From Chloroflexota bacterium (GTDB lineage Bacteria > Chloroflexota > Anaerolineae > Promineifilales > Promineifilaceae), in contig JABFFZ010000005.1 in the NCBI GenBank assembly GCA_013112725.1, forward strand, positions 1-64,000: a stretch of DNA of 64,000 nt. Direction: 5' to 3'. How positions within the stretch are numbered: the stretch's first letter is position 1; the number at the start of each line of letters is the position of its first letter. The notes under the pieces are model-generated. The model did not search any database. It was given only the letters and a program-made list of their open reading frames with translations, and was not told the DNA's origin. Shown here one piece after another: positions 8,290 through 56,046 of the stretch. The position numbers and the translations under genes were made by a program.

Positions 8290-8411
8290 TTTTTTAATCG
8301 CTAATGGAACCGCTCGCTAATGGAACCGCTAATGGACGCTAATAAGAAATTTTTATTCGCGTTCATTCGCGTTCATTCGCGGTTCTCAAAAACAACAACC
8401 CCCATTCCCGT
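8290..8411. repeat. 10-bp tandem repeats between island genes
   Basis: The spacer upstream of the Eco57I-like gene contains GCTAATGGAACC repeats (about 8300-8340), then the 10-bp unit ATTCGCGTTC in tandem and ATTCGCGGTTCTC (8356-8390). The same units recur at 8409-8436 and 8898-9010. Confidence 0.75.
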
Positions 8412-8837
8412 TCATTCCTGTTCATTCGCGGTTCTCAATGGCCGGGTCAAAACCATGCGCTTCCATTCCAACTTGGGAGAGCCAAAGTTAAGCAGAAGGC
8501 CAACACGTTTCCTCGTCGCTTTCAAGTAATTAAGCAACTGCGCCTGTTCAATCGTCGTCAACGCCTTGATCGCCTTGATCTCGACAATGACCTGATCATA
8601 ACAAATAAAATCAGGGACATATTCTTTGGCAAGGATATGCCCTTTATAAGAAATTCTAACGGTTGGCTGAGCGACAAAAGGAATAGCGCGGCTTCTCAAT
8701 TCAATCCCCAACGCTTCCTGATAAACTGCTTCCAGAAAACCAGCCCCCAACACATTCGACACCTCCATCGCCGCCCCCACAACCCCAAAAACCTCATCCT
8801 TAAAAATCAATTCATGCTCATTCCCGATCATTTGCAC
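8412..8837 (-). CDS. GxxExxY protein (PDDEXK-like)
   Basis: A 141-residue protein of the GxxExxY family, named for the motif seen here as GAGFLEAVYQEAL. The rest fits the family: VPDFICYDQVIVEIKAIKAL contains the D...E-x-K pattern of a PD-(D/E)XK nuclease fold, and LLNYLKATRKRVGLLLNFG is the conserved end. Biochemical function is not established for the family; a DNA-directed nuclease role is inferred from the fold. Here it sits inside the restriction-modification island between two methylase genes, with repeat arrays on both sides, so it may be a later insertion carried by those repeats. Its last residues (RTANEQE) and stop codon are encoded by the repeat array itself. The gene has no ACGGCCGT octamer. 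Confidence 0.85.
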   Translation of the reverse strand: MQMIGNEHELIFKDEVFGVVGAAMEVSNVLGAGFLEAVYQEALGIELRSRAIPFVAQPTVRISYKGHILAKEYVPDFICYDQVIVEIKAIKALTTIEQAQLLNYLKATRKRVGLLLNFGSPKLEWKRMVLTRPLRTANEQE

Positions 8838-9010
8838 TCAACTCCTTTACCCAAAATCAATTCACACCCATTCTCACCCATTCTCACCCATCCCCACCTA
8901 TTCGCGTTCATTTGCGTCCATTCGCGTTCATTTGCACTCAACTCCTTTACCCAAAATCAATTCACACCCATTCCCACCTATTCGCGTTCATTCGCGTTCA
9001 TTCGCGGTTC
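8838..9010. repeat. Direct repeats (45 bp, 100 bp apart) plus 10-bp units
   Basis: A block of about 45 bases beginning CATTTGCACTCAACTCC occurs at 8829-8873 and again, apparently unchanged, at 8929-8973. Between and after the copies are runs of ATTCGCGTTC-type 10-mers and CATTCTCACCC-type units. The array overlaps the start of the GxxExxY gene and supplies the last codons of the upstream methylase (ending at 8988). Confidence 0.8.
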
Positions 9011-27218: not shown

Positions 27219-27225
27219 AATTCCT

Positions 27226-27296
27226 CGGTAATCGGTAATCGGTAATCGGTAATCGGTAATCGGTGATCAGTAACCGATTACCGATTACCGATTACA
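27226..27296. repeat. 7-bp repeat array with inverted copies (GGTAATC)
   Basis: GGTAATC is repeated five times in tandem from 27226, then GTGATCAGTAACC as a turn, then GATTACC copies in the opposite sense to 27296. The result is a long hairpin between two minus-strand genes, and it supplies the stop codon of the gene ending at 27292. Confidence 0.8.
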
Positions 27297-37379: not shown

Positions 37380-37511
37380 GTCCTCACTCGTCACTCATCA
37401 CTTGTCACTCGTCACTCATCACTTGTCACTCGTCACTCATCACTTGTCACTCGTCACTCGTCACTCGTCATCCGTAATCCGACCGGATACGGATTACGAT
37501 TTACGGATTAC
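37380..37511. repeat. Long 7-bp repeat array (TCACTCG/TCACTTG) and hairpin
   Basis: From 37381 to about 37468 the 7-mers TCACTCG, TCACTCA and TCACTTG alternate about twelve times. Then a second family (CGTAATC, GGATTACG) forms an inverted pair (about 37470-37510). It fills the spacer between the cupin and PhzF genes, both on the minus strand. Confidence 0.85.
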
Positions 37512-38511: not shown

Positions 38512-38562
38512 TTCACGCATCACGCATCACGCATCACGCATCACGCATCATGCATCACGCAG
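38512..38562. repeat. 7-bp repeats (CACGCAT)
   Basis: CACGCAT is repeated six to seven times in tandem. The minus-strand gene ending at 38548 takes its stop codon from this array. Confidence 0.8.
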
Positions 38563-40666: not shown

Positions 40667-43600
40667 CTAAGGTTGGGTGGAATCGTATAACGGGCCGCCG
40701 TCAATTGCGTCTATCCCCCCGCCTAAATCATGGGAGACGGCCACGCCAGTGACACCCTGGCAGCTATTACCGATGGTGTCAACGGCCGTGAAGTAAATAT
40801 GGTAGACACGGCCGTCACCACTTCCATTGCGCTCGGCGCGCACTTTGGCTTTCCCGTTTGCCAATATGATACCGTCCGGGGCATGGGGCGGGCTGCCTAC
40901 CGGTTCATCCTGGCGAATAGCTGTTACCGAAAGTGCGGCGGGAGCGCCATCTGCGCCTGCCACCCCAGAAACAGTAATGGTGACAAACTTGTTGTTGGGA
41001 GGCCAGATTTTGGAAGTAGAAGGCACGGCCGTGCTGCAATCTAACGTTTCTGGTTCTTCTTCCAGTTGTAATAGCAGCGTACCGCTGGCCATGGACGGAT
41101 TATAACGCGCATCATTCAGTATCAATGTCTCGCCCGTATGGAGGGGGATGCTGCCGCTGAAATAAACATGAACAGTATAGGCGCCTACCGGCAGCGGCAG
41201 TTGGCCGATGCTGGCCCGCCCGGCATAGTCGGTGATGGCCGTCTGGCTAAACGCACCGCCATCACCGCTGATGACAAAGACAATGGATTTTTCGCCCAGG
41301 CGACGGCCGTCGGCGGCCATGAGTGTGGCCGTTAACAAAATATCTTCATCAGGCGCGCCAGTCGCCGGCTGCGCCAACGCCAATAGTGTATTCTGTTTGC
41401 TGATGGTAAAAGAGGTAGACGCGTAAGAGGGGGCAAATGCCTGCGCGCCGGCAAAAGAGACCTGCAGCGGGTATTGGCCGGGTAGCCCCAAGAGCGTCAG
41501 CGTTACTGTTGCCTGACCGTTGGCGTCAGTAATGCCCTGGCGGGACTGTGGCCCCAGGCTAAAGGTAAGCCGCTGTTCGGCCAACGGCGTACCATTATCG
41601 GTTAACTGGGCCGTTACCTGAATTTGGGAATTATAAACGCCGCTGGTGGGTGGATTGAGCAGGGTTACGGCCGTGGGCGCGGTGGCGGTGGGTGGCGCGC
41701 CTGGTACATACAGATCACCCAGATTGGCCGCCAGACTGACCAGCCCGACACCGTTCACCGCCTGGACCAGATAGCGCATATGTGCCGGGTCTGTGCCGTT
41801 GAGCGGCAAGACGCCTTGCCAACGGGTGGAGAGGGATGGATGTTGGCTGAGATCGAGCGGCTGCCATTGGCCGGCGTAAGGGCCGGTGACGGCCGTGTAC
41901 ACCACCCACACCGCTTGTACGCCCGCCGCTGGATTACCCAACACATCCACACTAAAGTGAATGTCGTCACCTTGCGGTTGGGCCACCACCTGCTGGATGG
42001 TTGGCGGTGCTGCCAGCGCCGGGGTGCTGTTGCCGCCATATGTGCCGGTGTTGTGGTTATAAAACAGGCGGAAATGAAGCTGGTCATAGCGACGCATGGT
42101 GCCCGTCGGCGCGCCGGGCGCATCAGACATGAATTGGGCCGGGGTAACGGCCAGCAATGTCATGCCATTGCCCGGATTGGCCAGCAAATCAAAGTAATTG
42201 ACCTGCCAGAACTGAATCGGGTAGAAGGTGTCTGTCTGGAAGGGGGCATGGGCGCCACGAATTTCAGTGGTCGGCGCGCCGGTAAAGGGCAGGATATTGC
42301 CTAAATCGGTGTAGCTGCCGCCACGGAATCCAACGCCGCGTAAATGGGTATTCGGCGCGGTCACATTTACCATGTGTAGCGGCAATGTGGGTTCGGCGGG
42401 GTTGGTCAGAACGCCATCTGGCCCAACCAGGTAAAAGGCATTCACCGTTGTGTCATCTTGCACATTTTTCATCGGCACTGTCTCACTGCCGAAAGCAGGC
42501 GTCAGGGTCAGGTCAGCTATGGCCAGGCCCAGTGTGCTGCCGGGATTGCTGCCCACCGGAGTAACGCTGGTAATGGCCGATGGTTGGTTAGCCGCTGGCA
42601 GGCGGCTGCCGGGCATGTCTACGCTCAACTGCGGCAGGCCAAAGATGGTGGCCTGGATAAGCGATTTTTCATGGATGCCACGCATTTGTGGTGTTTCCGC
42701 CAGATAGGTCTGTTTCGCGGCAACCCACGCCTGGCCTACCGAAACCGGCCCGCCGCCGCGCCGCAGTTCCCGGCTAAATTCCAGATAGAGCCGTTCTGAG
42801 TATTCAATGAAATCGGTGTCGCCGTATTGGTAGCCGGTACCGGCGATGAGCAGCGCGCCTTTGCTGGCGAAAGCCTGGGCCCAATCTGGCTCTTCGGTGA
42901 TGAAGGGGACACCATCGGCGTCTACGATGTTGTAACCGGAATGGCAGCCGGCGCTGAAGATGATGGCGTTTTGCAGATTCACCGGGGCGCTGAGCAGTTC
43001 GGCGGCCCGCATCCGGGTGGTGTAGTCGGCGGCCAGGGCGCCGCTGGCGCTGAAGTGGCCGGCCAGGAAGGTGATGTCGTGGCGGCTACCCAAGAGGATG
43101 GCGCGTAGATCATCCGCCGTCCAGGAGGCGGGGTCGGTGGGGGCCAGGTTGTTGGCGGCGATGAGTGTATGAGCTGTCTGGTTGAGTCCGGCTTCTAATT
43201 CGGACTGCACGGCGAGAGCGGCATCTTCCAGGAAGTCATAACCGATGACCAATGGCGGCGCGCTGAGGCTGATGACGCCGTTGCTGGTGGTCAGGTAAGC
43301 ATCGAGGACGGCCGTAGCCTGCGCCGCCGTTTCCACCAATCGCCCCACAGCTAAATCGGGGATGGGGATGGCCGAATTTTTGAAGGAGACGGCCGTGCTG
43401 GAACCATACTCATCTTGCCCCAACACGTAACCCAGGCGCAGGCTGGCTTGCGAAGCGGTGTTATCCCGTACCGGCGGCACGTAATTGCTTTCATTGGCTA
43501 AGAGGGCGTTGTCCGGATAGCGATAGAAGGGGATAACGGCGTCGTTACCGACGATGACGACGTAGGCCAGCGGATTGAGCGCCCGGTAGCCATCAACAAT

Positions 43601-46576
43601 TTCTTTGATCGTAGCCGCCACCAGGTTCCTGGCGTAGGGGCAGGCCAGGTGGGCATCGGCCTGGGCGTTAGCGGCGGCCACACGGGCATCCGCGCCCACA
43701 TCTACGATGATACCTGCAACCTCTGGCCGGGCGGCGTAGGTTGCCAGGCGGGTGGTGAGGGTGGCTTTTTCCACCGCCGTGCCGGCCATGCGCGCCATAT
43801 CGGTGAGGATGATGGTCTGGTAATTGCCGGCGGTGGGGGTGGTGGTGCCGGGTTGGCTCACGGCCGTGACTTCACCACAGGCGCCAGATTGCGTTTCGAC
43901 ACTGACCTGGAAGGGCGCCTGCACATTAAACGCGCCGTTGGCGCCGCGCACCCGCACATAAAAGTAGCCGGTATTGTTCCAGGTATTGATAATCAGCCCC
44001 TCATTGGCCGTGCCGCGAAAGGCGGAGACGCCTAACAAACTGCGCAGTTGCGCACCGGAGAAGGCTTCGGGGCTAAAGGCTTCGGGGCTAAAGGCCTCTG
44101 GGCTGAATGCTTCGGGGCTAAAGGCTTCGGGGCTGAACGCTTCGGGGCTGAAGGCTTCGGGGCTGAAGGCTTCGGGGCTGAAGGCTTCGGGGCTGAAGGC
44201 CTCTGGGCTAAATGCTTCAGGACTGAAGGCTTCGGGGCTAAATGCTTCGGGACTGAAGGCTTCGGGACTGAAGGCTTCGGGGCTGAACGCTTCGGGGCTG
44301 AACGCTTCGGGGCTAAAGGCTTCGGGGCTGAACGCTTCCGGGGCAAATTCGGCGTCGAAGCGGGGCAAATCCTGGGGCGACAACAGTTGGCTGTATGCCT
44401 GGGCAATGTCTTTGAAGATGGTCAGGTCGTAGTTGTCCGGCAGGCTGGTGAGGGTGACGATCACTTTGCTGCCGGGCTGCACAGGGAATTTGTACCAGCG
44501 GGATTGGCCGGGTTGGTCCAGGTATTGGCTGACGGCCGTTGGCCCCAGATCGGGCAGCACGTCTAGCGGCATGGCCGTGACCCAGGAGGTATTACCGGGG
44601 CTGACGGCGATGCAGTCAGACAGTTCCGAGGTATTGCCATTGGGGTCGGTGGCGGTGGATGTGACAAAATAGCCCAGGGGCACGGCCGTTAAGCCGGAGG
44701 CTGTGAAATAGACATCACCAAAGGCATCCGTTGTCACCTGGGTAGCGCCCAGGAAGGTCTGGCTGCCGCCGCTGAGGAGGCAGGCGGGCGCGGCGAAAAA
44801 TTCCAGGGTGAAGGTGATGCCGGGGATGCTATCCAGACGGCCGTCAATCCGCAGACCGTCAGTCTGGGGCACGGCCGTGAGCAGATTGGGGTAGTTTTGC
44901 AGGTAATTGGCGCCGTCGTCGGGGTCGTCGGTGTCGTTGAGGGTACGGCCGTCGCCGCCCAGGTCAATGGGCAGGCCGCCGTTATCGTGCATGTTGTTTC
45001 CGGTTAGCTGGTTGCCTATTCCTGCCAGAATCCGCATGCCATCACCACCATTGTAGGCAATCTCGTTCCCTTCCATGACGTTGTTGCCATTTTGGGCGAG
45101 CAGCAGGCCATGGCTGCTGAAGTTGATAATGCGCAGCCCGCGCACAGTTGACCCACCGGCGGTAATCTCTAGGCCAACGGCCGTGCCTGCCTGCGAACCA
45201 TCCAATACCACCAGGCCACCGGTCTGCGTGAAACCGTCAATTAAAACCGGATCAGCAATAACCGGTAATGGCGATAGCGGATAGATGACCGGGGGCAGGC
45301 TGCCGGGAATGTTGAAATGGATCTGATTGCTAACGCTAGAAGCGTTGGTGAGCAGAATGGCTTCGCGCAGTGAGCAATGGGCATAATCACACACCCCATC
45401 ATCCCCATCATCGGCTGTATTGACCACCAGCGCCGGGCCGGTCTGTGTTGGATTTTCTAACTCGTAAGCGCCGATGTCACAGAAAAGGCCGCGTGGCCGG
45501 CTAATGCCGCGCTGGTCGGTAGCCGGGCAGCTATCTGGTGCGCCGGCTTCTACTGCCGGGCTGTCAGGCAATAGCCCATGATTCAGCGTACTGCCGCCAT
45601 TAAAGGCCAGCGGCGCCAGCAGTGGGTTAACGCCAATGAGATTCCCCGTTGTATTGCCCGTGATGGTGCAGTCGGATGCATTTTGGATGAGATTGTACCC
45701 TTGTGAAACAACGGCGCCTTTACAGCTATTACCCACCAGGGTGTGGTTGATCTGGAGTGTACCACCGCTGGTGTAAATACCAGTACCGGCGGAGGCGCTA
45801 TTGTTGGCAATGGTGACAAAATTAAGGGTAGTCGTGCCTTTATTGTAAAGGCCACCCCCGTAACCGTTGGTAGAGTTGCCGCTGATGGTGCTGTTGGTAA
45901 ACACGGCTGTGCCTTTGTATACCTTCACGCCGCCAGCGCCGTTGTTGGCGCTGTTATCAATAATGCTTACCTTTTCGGCATTAAGTGTCCCATCGTTAAA
46001 GATGCCCCCACCGACGCTGCTGGCAAAGTTGTTGCTGATGGTGACATTGGTCAGAGTCAGGTTGCCATTATTGTATATGGCGCCGCCATGCCCATACACC
46101 TGACCATTTCTTAGCGTTACCCCTGTCACGGTTACATTACCGGAAATCACCTGGATCAGGCGATCGTTCAAGCTGTTGCCATCAATAATGGTCAAATTGG
46201 GGCCATCGCCCACAATTTGAACATGACCGTTGATGTCCAGGTCCCCTTTTTGGGCGTAATTTTCATTTTTCCCCACACGAGTAAGGGCATAAGTAGCCGC
46301 AGGCAGCAGGATAACGTCCGCGCCACTACCAGCCGCACATTCACCAGCCACTGCTCCAGAAGAGGTGTCACTGTTGGCTGCTATGATGGCTTCCCGAAGT
46401 GAACAAAGCCCATCCGTGGCGATTTTCACATCAAGAGTGGTGTTGACGGTGATAATAGTAGATGCCCGGCTGACTTGGGAAGGGGACGCAAGGAAGGTGA
46501 GTATAAGTAAAAAGAGCAGAAGTAGAAAAGACCTGGCGGGAACTACTGGCCATTTGGGTGAAAGCTGCTGAACCAT
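40667..46576 (-). CDS. Giant secreted protein: CSLREA, beta-helix, EAFSP repeats, C25-like protease
   Basis: A 1969-residue exported protein. The signal peptide is SFLLLLFLLILTFLASPSQV. It is followed by a CSLREA domain (DGLCSLREAIIAANSD) and a right-handed beta-helix region (TIDGNSLNDRLIQVISGNVT, GGAIYNNGNLTLTNVTISNN). A second CSLREA copy is present (CDYAHCSLREAILLTNASSV). Nineteen EAFSP pentapeptides span residues about 745-840. Then comes a C25/gingipain-like caspase-fold domain: VVIVGNDAVIPFYRYPDN, His in DITFLAGHFSAS (about 1173), Cys in IIFSAGCHSGYNIVD (about 1210), ALLIAGTGYQYGD, and the AWVAAKQTYL and FGLPQL end. The remaining 600 residues hold Ig-like beta domains (GITDANGQATVTLTLLGLPG). 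It is probably a surface-bound or released protease. The positions of His and Cys fit the C25 dyad; activity is inference. Confidence 0.85.
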   Translation of the reverse strand: MVQQLSPKWPVVPARSFLLLLFLLILTFLASPSQVSRASTIITVNTTLDVKIATDGLCSLREAIIAANSDTSSGAVAGECAAGSGADVILLPAATYALTRVGKNENYAQKGDLDINGHVQIVGDGPNLTIIDGNSLNDRLIQVISGNVTVTGVTLRNGQVYGHGGAIYNNGNLTLTNVTISNNFASSVGGGIFNDGTLNAEKVSIIDNSANNGAGGVKVYKGTAVFTNSTISGNSTNGYGGGLYNKGTTTLNFVTIANNSASAGTGIYTSGGTLQINHTLVGNSCKGAVVSQGYNLIQNASDCTITGNTTGNLIGVNPLLAPLAFNGGSTLNHGLLPDSPAVEAGAPDSCPATDQRGISRPRGLFCDIGAYELENPTQTGPALVVNTADDGDDGVCDYAHCSLREAILLTNASSVSNQIHFNIPGSLPPVIYPLSPLPVIADPVLIDGFTQTGGLVVLDGSQAGTAVGLEITAGGSTVRGLRIINFSSHGLLLAQNGNNVMEGNEIAYNGGDGMRILAGIGNQLTGNNMHDNGGLPIDLGGDGRTLNDTDDPDDGANYLQNYPNLLTAVPQTDGLRIDGRLDSIPGITFTLEFFAAPACLLSGGSQTFLGATQVTTDAFGDVYFTASGLTAVPLGYFVTSTATDPNGNTSELSDCIAVSPGNTSWVTAMPLDVLPDLGPTAVSQYLDQPGQSRWYKFPVQPGSKVIVTLTSLPDNYDLTIFKDIAQAYSQLLSPQDLPRFDAEFAPEAFSPEAFSPEAFSPEAFSPEAFSPEAFSPEAFSPEAFSPEAFSPEAFSPEAFSPEAFSPEAFSPEAFSPEAFSPEAFSPEAFSPEAFSPEAFSGAQLRSLLGVSAFRGTANEGLIINTWNNTGYFYVRVRGANGAFNVQAPFQVSVETQSGACGEVTAVSQPGTTTPTAGNYQTIILTDMARMAGTAVEKATLTTRLATYAARPEVAGIIVDVGADARVAAANAQADAHLACPYARNLVAATIKEIVDGYRALNPLAYVVIVGNDAVIPFYRYPDNALLANESNYVPPVRDNTASQASLRLGYVLGQDEYGSSTAVSFKNSAIPIPDLAVGRLVETAAQATAVLDAYLTTSNGVISLSAPPLVIGYDFLEDAALAVQSELEAGLNQTAHTLIAANNLAPTDPASWTADDLRAILLGSRHDITFLAGHFSASGALAADYTTRMRAAELLSAPVNLQNAIIFSAGCHSGYNIVDADGVPFITEEPDWAQAFASKGALLIAGTGYQYGDTDFIEYSERLYLEFSRELRRGGGPVSVGQAWVAAKQTYLAETPQMRGIHEKSLIQATIFGLPQLSVDMPGSRLPAANQPSAITSVTPVGSNPGSTLGLAIADLTLTPAFGSETVPMKNVQDDTTVNAFYLVGPDGVLTNPAEPTLPLHMVNVTAPNTHLRGVGFRGGSYTDLGNILPFTGAPTTEIRGAHAPFQTDTFYPIQFWQVNYFDLLANPGNGMTLLAVTPAQFMSDAPGAPTGTMRRYDQLHFRLFYNHNTGTYGGNSTPALAAPPTIQQVVAQPQGDDIHFSVDVLGNPAAGVQAVWVVYTAVTGPYAGQWQPLDLSQHPSLSTRWQGVLPLNGTDPAHMRYLVQAVNGVGLVSLAANLGDLYVPGAPPTATAPTAVTLLNPPTSGVYNSQIQVTAQLTDNGTPLAEQRLTFSLGPQSRQGITDANGQATVTLTLLGLPGQYPLQVSFAGAQAFAPSYASTSFTISKQNTLLALAQPATGAPDEDILLTATLMAADGRRLGEKSIVFVISGDGGAFSQTAITDYAGRASIGQLPLPVGAYTVHVYFSGSIPLHTGETLILNDARYNPSMASGTLLLQLEEEPETLDCSTAVPSTSKIWPPNNKFVTITVSGVAGADGAPAALSVTAIRQDEPVGSPPHAPDGIILANGKAKVRAERNGSGDGRVYHIYFTAVDTIGNSCQGVTGVAVSHDLGGGIDAIDGGPLYDSTQP
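44059..44340 (-). repeat. 15-bp minisatellite coding for 19 EAFSP repeats
   Basis: Nineteen 15-bp units (read on the plus strand as GGCTTCGGGGCTGAA with variants such as CGCTTCGGGGCTAAA and TGCTTCAGGACTGAA) lie in perfect 15-base register from 44063 to 44333. Nearly all changes are at third codon positions, so the peptide stays EAFSP while DNA units diverge. The array links the beta-helix part of the protein to the protease part. Confidence 0.95.
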
Positions 46577-47419: not shown

Positions 47420-49888
47420 TTACTGCTTGATCCTGACCGGCTGGGCGCGGGGGAGGACAATGTGGAAGTGGCTGCCGGGGCAGTTCTTTTCGTCGTGACC
47501 GGCGCTTTCGGCCCAGAGACGGCCGTGATGGGCTTCAATGATCCCCCGGGCAATGGCTAATCCCAAACCGGGGCCGCCTCCTTTGAATTTGGTTTTGCCG
47601 GAGGAGTGCAGAGCTACATCTCCTGTCTGGTAGAATTTGGTGAAGATAAGTTCCTGCGCTTCTGGGGCAATGCCAATGCCGCTGTCGCTGATAGTAATGG
47701 CGATAGAGTCGGTGGGCAAATCGGGCTGTGGCGGTGTGTCCCAGGCACGGCCGTGAATGCGAATCTCGCCGCCATCTGGTGTGTACTTAATGGCATTCAC
47801 AATAATGTTGGCGAACACCACTTTCAGCGCATCTTCATCGCCGGTAATAGAGGGCAAAGCCACCAGTGAATCATCTACAATCACCCGCTGCTTACGGCTG
47901 GCAATATCTTCAGCCAACCCCTTGATAATTTGCCCAATCAACTCGACCATGTTGAGCGGCTCTGGAAAAACCTCCAGCGCCTTACTATCAATTTTCACCA
48001 TCCATAACATGGTGGTCACAATCTCATGGAGCCGATTGACCCCGGAAACAATACCGGCTACCAGATTATCATTGTCATTGTCGCTAGCTTCACCCCCCTT
48101 CTTTTGCAGCAGTTGGCTGTAGGCTTTCATTACAGTGATGGGTGTGCGTAGTTCATGGGCGGTGACGGCGATGAAGTCGGCTTTGGCTTTGTCTAGCCGT
48201 TCCAACTGCTCGTAGGCATCTTGCAAAGCCTGGGTGCGCTGGCGTACTTCGTATTCCAGTTGTTCATTAAAACGGCGTGTGCGGTTAAATAAGCGGGCAT
48301 TTTCCAGGGCGACAACGGCCGTAGCGCCAAATGTTGTCGCCAGGGCAATGGCTTCCTCATTATAGGGCGCGTTCGCCTCACGCACCAACGACAGCATCCC
48401 CCGCACCTCATCGCGGTGAATGAGGGGAATGCCCAACCAGGCCCCTGGCACTTTCAAATTGGAAACCTGCTGCCACCCTTCATAATCAGCCAGATCCACC
48501 AGCGCCAACGGCCGTCGGGAATGATAAATCCGCATAAACACATCCGGCGACTCTGGGTCTTCATCGAGGGGCACGTGCTGGTGCAAATAACCTTCGCCCT
48601 CAGGAAAACCGCGCATGGCCATAAATTCCAGTTCATTGCCGCGGCGCACCAGCAGCGAAGCGCGATCATATGGTACCAACAGCGCCAATTGAGCCAGAAT
48701 CGTATCCAATACATCTTTGAGTTCGATGGAGCCGGTTAAGGCTGCCCCCACGCGCTGCATCGTTTCGGCCAGCGCCCGCCGCGCCTGTTCTTCCTGATAG
48801 AGCGAGGCGTACAACTCGGCTTCCTTTTGCGCCGCCTGGGTGCGCTGCAAAATTTCCAGATTCTTCAGCTTTTCATTAACTTCTTCGCTTTGCACCGTTT
48901 CTTTAATGGCGTGAAACTGCTCAAAATGGGTTAACGCTTCGGCATATAAGCCGAGATTTCTATAAATTTCCACCAACAACCGGTGGCAGGCAAATATCCA
49001 CCTTTTGTGGTGCGAGTGTTCGGCTAACGCTAAAGCCTGCTGAACGGAGGGGAGCGCCTGGGCAGTTTTACCCTGCTTAAAATAGACTTCGCCGCTTAAT
49101 TTCAGGCTCTCAATGGCCATATCGGCGTCATCCCCTTTGTTGGCAATGGTCACGGCCGTTTCCAGATATTCCAGCGCCTTTTCCGGTTCATTCAGGTGCA
49201 GGTAGATTTCGGCCATTGAATTGCAGATGACCCCTTCCAGCCGTTGGTTTGCATGTAACCTGGCGAAAGCCAGACCTCGCTCACCCCAAGACAACGCCTT
49301 GGCATAATCTCCTTGCTGGAAATAGTTATAACAAATGTTGTTCAGCAGCAAGGCCACCCAGTAGGTTTTTCCGCTTAATTTCTGGAACACTGTCAGGCTT
49401 TGTTCATTGTAGGATTGGGCGCTGGCATAATCATTCATCTCACCATACAGATTGCCCAGACCTAACAAAGCCATGGCATACCCTTCCTCATCGCCCACAC
49501 GCTCACACACTTCAAGCTGTCGCATGTAATAATCCAGGCTAACCGAGAGATTGCCCAGCAACATGTAATTAGTGGCAACGGTGTATAACACGGCGCTCAT
49601 CAATTCCGGCAGATCCTCATCTTCCAGAATGGATAGCGCTTCTAGCGCCTGAGAGAGGGAGTATTCATAATTGCCACTGTAAACCGTGATGCGACTGAGG
49701 TTGCGTAAACTTTCGGCCAGACCGCGTTTATAGGGGTTTTGGGCAAAGAGGCCGGTAGTGGCCAGGTCAGCAGCTTCATGGCTGAGGAGACGGGCACGTT
49801 CCCGGTCATCGGTAAGGATAGACCATGCTTCCGCATTTAGTTGATCAATGCGGGCGATCAACACGGCCTTGTCGTCCATCGTTGTCAT
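47420..49888 (-). CDS. Cytosolic TPR-GAF sensor histidine kinase
   Basis: About 822 residues; the start is uncertain (ATG at 49888, 49879 or 49906). Residues 1-330 are TPRs (EKALEYLETAVTIANKGDDA, AQALPSVQQALALAEHSHHK). A coiled coil comes next (EEVNEKLKNLEILQRTQAAQ), then a GAF domain (LDTILAQLALLVPYDRASLL through AWLGIPLIHRDEVRGMLSLV), a second short coiled coil and the kinase core. The phospho-accepting His is in FIAVTAHELRTPITVMKAYS (about 578), the N box is FANIIVNAIKYTPDGGEIRI, then ISDSGIGIAPEAQELIFTKF and FKGGGPGLGLAIARGIIEAH. There is no membrane segment. No response regulator gene is adjacent, so the kinase is an orphan. The TPR part probably recognises a protein partner. Confidence 0.92.
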   Translation of the reverse strand: MTTMDDKAVLIARIDQLNAEAWSILTDDRERARLLSHEAADLATTGLFAQNPYKRGLAESLRNLSRITVYSGNYEYSLSQALEALSILEDEDLPELMSAVLYTVATNYMLLGNLSVSLDYYMRQLEVCERVGDEEGYAMALLGLGNLYGEMNDYASAQSYNEQSLTVFQKLSGKTYWVALLLNNICYNYFQQGDYAKALSWGERGLAFARLHANQRLEGVICNSMAEIYLHLNEPEKALEYLETAVTIANKGDDADMAIESLKLSGEVYFKQGKTAQALPSVQQALALAEHSHHKRWIFACHRLLVEIYRNLGLYAEALTHFEQFHAIKETVQSEEVNEKLKNLEILQRTQAAQKEAELYASLYQEEQARRALAETMQRVGAALTGSIELKDVLDTILAQLALLVPYDRASLLVRRGNELEFMAMRGFPEGEGYLHQHVPLDEDPESPDVFMRIYHSRRPLALVDLADYEGWQQVSNLKVPGAWLGIPLIHRDEVRGMLSLVREANAPYNEEAIALATTFGATAVVALENARLFNRTRRFNEQLEYEVRQRTQALQDAYEQLERLDKAKADFIAVTAHELRTPITVMKAYSQLLQKKGGEASDNDNDNLVAGIVSGVNRLHEIVTTMLWMVKIDSKALEVFPEPLNMVELIGQIIKGLAEDIASRKQRVIVDDSLVALPSITGDEDALKVVFANIIVNAIKYTPDGGEIRIHGRAWDTPPQPDLPTDSIAITISDSGIGIAPEAQELIFTKFYQTGDVALHSSGKTKFKGGGPGLGLAIARGIIEAHHGRLWAESAGHDEKNCPGSHFHIVLPRAQPVRIKQ

Positions 49889-50164
49889 CGTTGCCGAGTT
49901 TATCATAACACGCCTAACCGCCACATAGCGTACCTGAACCCAAAAAACTTTTCAACATGACCACTGTGTAGAAGCAGTGAAAGTCTACCTTTGCGGGTTG
50001 ACCCAAACAAAACTAAAATCCGTAACCCGTGATCGGATCATGTTACCAAGGGAGTTCAACATGGGTGCAGCACACCACAGCCTGCACTGAACACAGTGAA
50101 GTGATGAATGAAAATTCATAATTCATCCTTCATAATTCATAATTTTCAGAGGAGTTTTACGACC
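49889..50164. other. Divergent spacer upstream of mutS and the histidine kinase
   Basis: No gene seen. The stretch includes unique sequence (49930-50095), then ATTCATA-type 7-bp repeats (about 50105-50150) that end just before the mutS ribosome binding site GAGGAG. Confidence 0.4.
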
Positions 50165-52774
<2,610 letters not shown>

Positions 52775-55509: not shown

Positions 55510-55974
55510 ATGGCAGCGATGACAGATGCACAAATTTTAGAGTTGATTAAAGGGTTGTACGCCCAACACATTCCTTTTCATCAGTTGATTGGTATGGAGG
55601 TATTGGCGCTGACGGCCGAGAGCGTGGAACTGCGGGTGCGGATGAAAGAGGATCTGGTGGGCAATCCGTTTTACCAGATTTTGCATGGTGGGGTGACAGC
55701 TTCGCTGCTGGATGCAGCCGGGGGGATGGTGGCTATGGCTAACCTGGTGGTGGAACTGCTCGACCTGTCACCGGAGGAGATGCAGCGGCGGCTGCAAAAG
55801 CTGGGCACGATTGATATTCGCATTGATTATCTGCGACCGGGACGGGGCAACGCTTTCACCGCCACGGCGCGGGTGATCCGCAAAGGCAACAAGGTGGCGG
55901 TGACGCGCATGGAATTGCACAATGAGGAGGGGGTGGAGATTGCGTTGGGCACGGCCACGTATCTGGTGGGGTGA
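55510..55974 (+). CDS. PaaI/YigI-like hotdog-fold thioesterase
   Basis: A 154-residue hotdog-fold thioesterase from ATG 55510 (CAGGAG 8 bases upstream). The catalytic region is LVGNPFYQILHGGVTASLLD, with the HGG motif and downstream Asp/Ala AAGGMVAMANLV typical of PaaI-like enzymes. The core helix and strands continue with IDIRIDYLRPGRGNAFTATA and VIRKGNKVAVTRMELHNEEG. Members cleave acyl-CoA; the substrate is not evident. It may be co-transcribed with the PNPOx-like gene, though an 80-base repeat hairpin lies between. Confidence 0.88.
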   Translation: MAAMTDAQILELIKGLYAQHIPFHQLIGMEVLALTAESVELRVRMKEDLVGNPFYQILHGGVTASLLDAAGGMVAMANLVVELLDLSPEEMQRRLQKLGTIDIRIDYLRPGRGNAFTATARVIRKGNKVAVTRMELHNEEGVEIALGTATYLVG

Positions 55975-55975
55975 T

Positions 55976-56046
55976 GCGTGACGAGTGATGCGTGACGAGT
56001 GATGCGTGACAACAGTTTCACGCATCACTCGTCACGCATCACGAAT
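55976..56046. repeat. 7-bp/14-bp repeat hairpin (GATGCGT/GACGAGT)
   Basis: GTGATGCGTGACGAGTGATGC repeats twice, then ACAACAGTTTC as a turn, then ACGCATCACTCGTCACGCAT in the opposite sense: a hairpin with about 28-bp arms between two same-strand genes. Confidence 0.85.

Follow-up and report, generated by a model that had tools for sequence, protein, structure and literature searches.

The predicted secreted protein P0001, encoded in the 64,000-nucleotide stretch of DNA from an uncultured Chloroflexota bacterium analysed here (the window), carries an array of nineteen pentapeptide units ahead of a putative cysteine protease domain. The new element is an evolutionary pattern, in which the number of units is held and their sequence is replaced. 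In several lineages the array DNA evolves faster than its surroundings, while the peptide and the count are unchanged, and evolution appears to count the repeats rather than expand them. A tentative generalisation, which we would put at clearly less than an even chance, is that in a secreted Chloroflexota family of C25-like proteases the jelly-roll array is counted and interchangeable in sequence, number or length rather than sequence being the conserved functional property. The usual view of short protein repeats is that their number varies and their unit is conserved. In this widespread protease family one site shows the reverse: number or length is held, and both unit and codons are replaced. 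If true, the 78 interchangeable units would form a natural series for probing the contribution of a low-complexity loop to an enzyme, and the family would offer a case in which selection on repeat count can be tested.

Architecture of P0001 and position of the array

The gene of P0001 (1,969 amino acids) occupies positions 40667..46576 of the minus strand, according to the list of open reading frames and its translation. The N-terminal segment, read by eye, is hydrophobic and resembles a signal peptide, and the protein was predicted to be secreted. This apparent signal peptide is followed by a beta-helix region, a jelly roll interrupted by the array, the C25-like protease domain, Ig-like domains and a C-terminal domain. 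The beta-helix region, which lies N-terminal to the array and which the first-pass annotation had called a stalk, was recovered by a match to the choice-of-anchor Q domain (NCBIfam NF041518, E 1e-23; residues 317-373, 45458..45628, minus strand) and by a Pfam Beta_helix match (PF13229, residues 468-539). A bacterial Ig-like domain (Pfam PF16640, E 6.9e-9) is located at residues 1642-1725 (41402..41653, minus strand). The adjoining genes (47420-49924 and 50108-52774) code for a TPR-GAF histidine kinase and for MutS, with no evident link to the protease.

The domain C-terminal to the array (42605..43849, minus strand) is a C25-like, clan-CD putative cysteine protease domain. The Peptidase_C25 profile (PF01364) matched 12 of 27 family members (best 1.8e-13), though not P0001 alone, and the C25-like label given at first reading is therefore right for the family. 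Foldseek matches of the protease-domain model to separase (4e-5), TPR-CHAT (1e-4), PorU (2e-4) and caspase-6 (2e-3) point to the caspase-haemoglobinase fold of clan CD. The candidate catalytic residues, His1174 (codon 43055..43057, minus strand) and Cys1211 (codon 42944..42946, minus strand), were checked in the translation; both are invariant in an alignment of 27 relatives and follow the clan-CD order of His then Cys. No credible solved relative was found by sequence.

The array spans residues 747-841 (44054..44338, minus strand) and, as had been counted at first reading, consists of nineteen 15-bp units, 18 encoding EAFSP and the final one EAFSG. Tandem Repeats Finder reported a period of 15, 18.9 copies and a score of 414, the top score in the window. 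Across the 18 EAFSP units there are 21 differences from the consensus unit and all 21 are synonymous (chance under random substitution about 2e-15), in agreement with the earlier suggestion of synonymous drift under selection on the peptide, that is, purifying selection. Elsewhere in the window, arrays of short 7-bp (or 14-bp) units, mostly intergenic, occur at 27225-27295, 37384-37470, 38513-38561, 50113-50144, 51343-51385 and 55971-56010 and recall cyanobacterial heptamer repeats. Tandem repeats of 10 bp and 16 bp (ATTCGCGTTC with its variants) cluster around short ORFs at 8298-9006.

Just before the array, the PPC profile PF04151 matches P0001 over profile positions 1-33 of 70 (E 0.0044; 18.3 bits against a cut-off of 25.9), which places the insertion point at position 34 of 70; the same N-terminal-half match was obtained for one relative with E 0.0006. 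The N-terminal half of this PPC-type jelly roll (residues 691-723; 44408..44506, minus strand) was delimited by the profile and by strands in two AF2 models. The C-terminal half (about residues 845-896; 43889..44044, minus strand), which by itself had no Pfam match, was placed by AF2 strands and by Foldseek alignments covering both halves. Both models build strands on either side of the array, and in Foldseek the two halves jointly aligned with jelly-roll domains, among them PPC, collagen-binding and GOLD domains (target-based TM 0.5-0.7, E-values above 0.01). The array itself was modelled with a pLDDT of 33-43 in two jobs using different alignments, neither of which resolved it into a confident fold. 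Relatives that have no array, represented by L112, to which L182 and L183 lie close, possess an uninterrupted PPC domain in this region (E 1.3e-16). In all likelihood the array is inserted in a turn within a single PPC-type jelly roll and is not an inter-domain linker, so the description of it as joining a stalk to the catalytic domain probably does not hold. If both of its ends are fixed in one jelly roll, the reach of the protease would not depend on array length, contrary to the role previously proposed for repeat number.

Unit number and codon turnover among relatives

Exactly 19 units were found in 13 of the 14 genomes with [DE][AM]F[ST]P arrays, which represent five genera and two families. 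The 19-unit set comprises 12 [DE]AFSP genomes (five from the genus of the window, one and three from two other genera of the same family, and three from one genus of another family) and one DMFTP genome, and flank identity among these proteins falls to about 55-57%. The only [DE]AFSP array with another count, that of G017 (locus L011), has 9 units built from a repeated 30-bp dimer, reflecting either a real loss or an assembly collapse. The nearest other unit types, DSFSP and DTFSP, have 17 and 16 units, respectively; several other clades vary more in unit number, and a constant count is thus not universal. The records of the named relatives are metagenome-assembled genomes. Mis-assembly of arrays can occur, and N gaps were seen inside the array of two relatives (L018 and L020). 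The first-pass view that the copies expand is not supported by these counts, and a recent minisatellite expansion was rejected on the fixed count together with near-random codon diversity. Of the two signs against itself that the first-pass annotation had named, a fixed copy number and a non-repeated sequence at this place in relatives, the fixed copy number was thus found.

The turnover of array DNA was compared with that of the flanks at third positions of Ala, Phe and Pro codons. Between G000 and G003, 81% of these positions are shared in the flanks and 37% in array units at the same place (Fisher p 9e-8), and units at other places share 39%, equal to same-place units. The same excess of array turnover was observed for G002-G004 (p 1e-4); it was weak for G026-G028 (p 0.008) and absent from the fourth independent pair, G622-G654 (p 0.86). 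In nearly all species pairs, synonymous codons gave no sign that individual units are orthologous, although unit order is not wholly lost, since a DAFSP at unit 13 (D13) persists in four species. Among units with identical peptides, diversity at third positions has a median of 0.90 of the expectation from the codon usage of the same gene (100 arrays). Identical DNA units exceed the shuffled expectation (339 against 195 in 45 arrays), indicating that segments are copied within arrays; such copying is visible as an alternating 30-bp dimer in G027, where the units still total 19. Protein repeats normally diverge once duplicated (PMC5120217), and the uniformity of the array units is for this reason unusual. 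There is a precedent for codon choice that counters unstable repeats (PMC1378130). Selection for codon differences between neighbouring units is not claimed here: the trend was weak (29 arrays lay below the shuffled mean and 15 above it) and identical units were in excess.

A protease-domain query detected relatives in 44 of 400 genomes from a phylum-wide sample and in 95 of 396 from a class-wide sample. A short tandem array stands just before the C25-like domain in 125 of the 135 loci read, and removal of duplicates left 114 arrays. Counted without regard to rotation, these contain 78 different units, most of them 5 or 6 residues long. The protease-domain tree assigns these arrays to clades. 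In first-clade relatives the strand-to-strand insert is mostly 108-140 residues long. In the sister (second) clade, five hexapeptides precede a conserved break unit, G[DE]L.DL, in 20 of 28 arrays (counted by eye), usually with about five units after it; the hexapeptide differs between species and changes in concert. This clade includes a paralogue from the same genome, L141 (G000:C2:115438-118038), in which GQMSNI hexapeptides are laid out as five, two break units and three. Among the relatives as a whole, L097 has an array of the Trp-rich decapeptide MWTWEMWTFP at the same site. Matches of hexapeptide arrays to collagen and MafB were judged to be driven by composition, and a search of the literature on these peptides and on C25-like proteins of Chloroflexota returned nothing relevant. 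We infer that selection acts on how many units there are (or on their summed length) and on their being alike, and not on the exact unit.

Possible roles of the array

The explanation we prefer, to which we give slightly less than even credence, is that the array may be a peptide of calibrated length, inserted in a loop of the PPC-type jelly roll directly before the C25-like protease domain, and that stabilising selection would remove arrays of the wrong length. In RgpB, a loop of the prodomain enters the active site and inhibits the enzyme (PMC4357240). By analogy, and with less certainty, the jelly roll might play the part of the gingipain prodomain, in which case the array would be an enlarged, length-tuned version of its inhibitory or processing loop. 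It could reach the protease domain and gate access or activation, or position something there. Against this stand the lack of a residue common to all units that might act as a shared pseudo-substrate, and the low-confidence AF2 model of the array, which gives no sign of contact with the protease domain. Randomised codons with D13 in place could also stem from gene conversion that preserves length, for which selection on number is not required.

The main rival to the length-calibrated loop is a folded ladder, which we regard as unlikely but worth weighing. Each unit would form a rung of a beta-solenoid or of an out-and-back ladder, so that the fold fixes the count and identical units stack. Such a structure would account for constant counts, for exactly six units in several arrays of one clade and for the central break unit of the sister clade, and hexapeptide arrays such as IAQLSD and IGRLSN fit the left-handed beta-helix hexapeptide pattern. 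However, no Pfam hexapeptide or pentapeptide repeat family was matched, and EAFSP puts Glu where the pentapeptide-repeat coil requires a small inward residue, the array register being [DE]-A-F-S-P and not small-[DN]-[LF]-[ST]-x. In addition, perfect repeats are a case in which AF2 predicts beta-solenoids too readily (PMC11795689), and it built none for EAFSP in two jobs, at low confidence. A multivalent binding surface, in which aromatic or hydrophobic units serve as stickers for polysaccharide, matrix or self-association, is less probable again: it would suit the hydrophobic or aromatic residue present in most units and a predicted secreted protein with a beta-helix region, but avidity explains neither an exact count nor whole-unit replacement at constant length. 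Glycosylation of Ser, raised at first reading, does not serve as a general role, since many equivalent arrays (PLQNI, GNLNAI, APQAF) contain no Ser or Thr.

The flexible or elastic spacer of the first-pass annotation, setting the reach of the protease, seems to us improbable. Short units rich in Pro or Gly and the low AF2 confidence would suit a flexible chain; with both array ends in one jelly roll, though, the distance from stalk to protease would be independent of length, and a floppy chain needs no exact count. Even less credence is due to a neutral minisatellite tolerated in the loop. In its favour, the unit motif differs among lineages and copied DNA segments exist, for example the dimer of G027, but the entirely synonymous variation, the constant number and the near-random third-position diversity all speak against it. 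Hardly any weight can likewise be given to the counts being an artefact of short-read assembly, for which the N gaps in L018 and L020 and the 9 units of G017 might be cited, because collapse would scatter the counts, and 19 units were found in 13 separate assemblies with different codons.

Relation to known systems

The closest analogy to the proposed calibrated loop is the zymogen of gingipain R (RgpB, family C25), which shares a clan-CD domain, the His/Cys pair and an N-terminal domain ahead of the protease. The inhibitory loop of RgpB is not a repeat array (PMC4357240), whereas the preceding domain here is of the PPC type and is likened to the RgpB prodomain by analogy, and P0001 itself has no PF01364 match. 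The jelly roll, its strand order and its motifs resemble the PPC domain (PF04151; the bacterial pre-peptidase C-terminal domain, including the collagen-binding domains of clostridial collagenase), but it is split near the middle by roughly 75-140 residues including a perfect repeat array, and it precedes the protease domain instead of trailing it. Uniform arrays of five- or six-residue units are also known from pentapeptide-repeat proteins (PF00805) and left-handed beta-helix hexapeptide repeats (PF00132), from which the present arrays are set apart by the absence of a Pfam match, the misfit of the EAFSP register and the lack of an AF2 coil for EAFSP. Finally, surface proteins encoded by minisatellites of varying copy number have in common with P0001 a 15-bp unit and secretion (predicted here); in the present family, by contrast, the number is fixed between species, the codons are near random and the unit is replaced as a whole.
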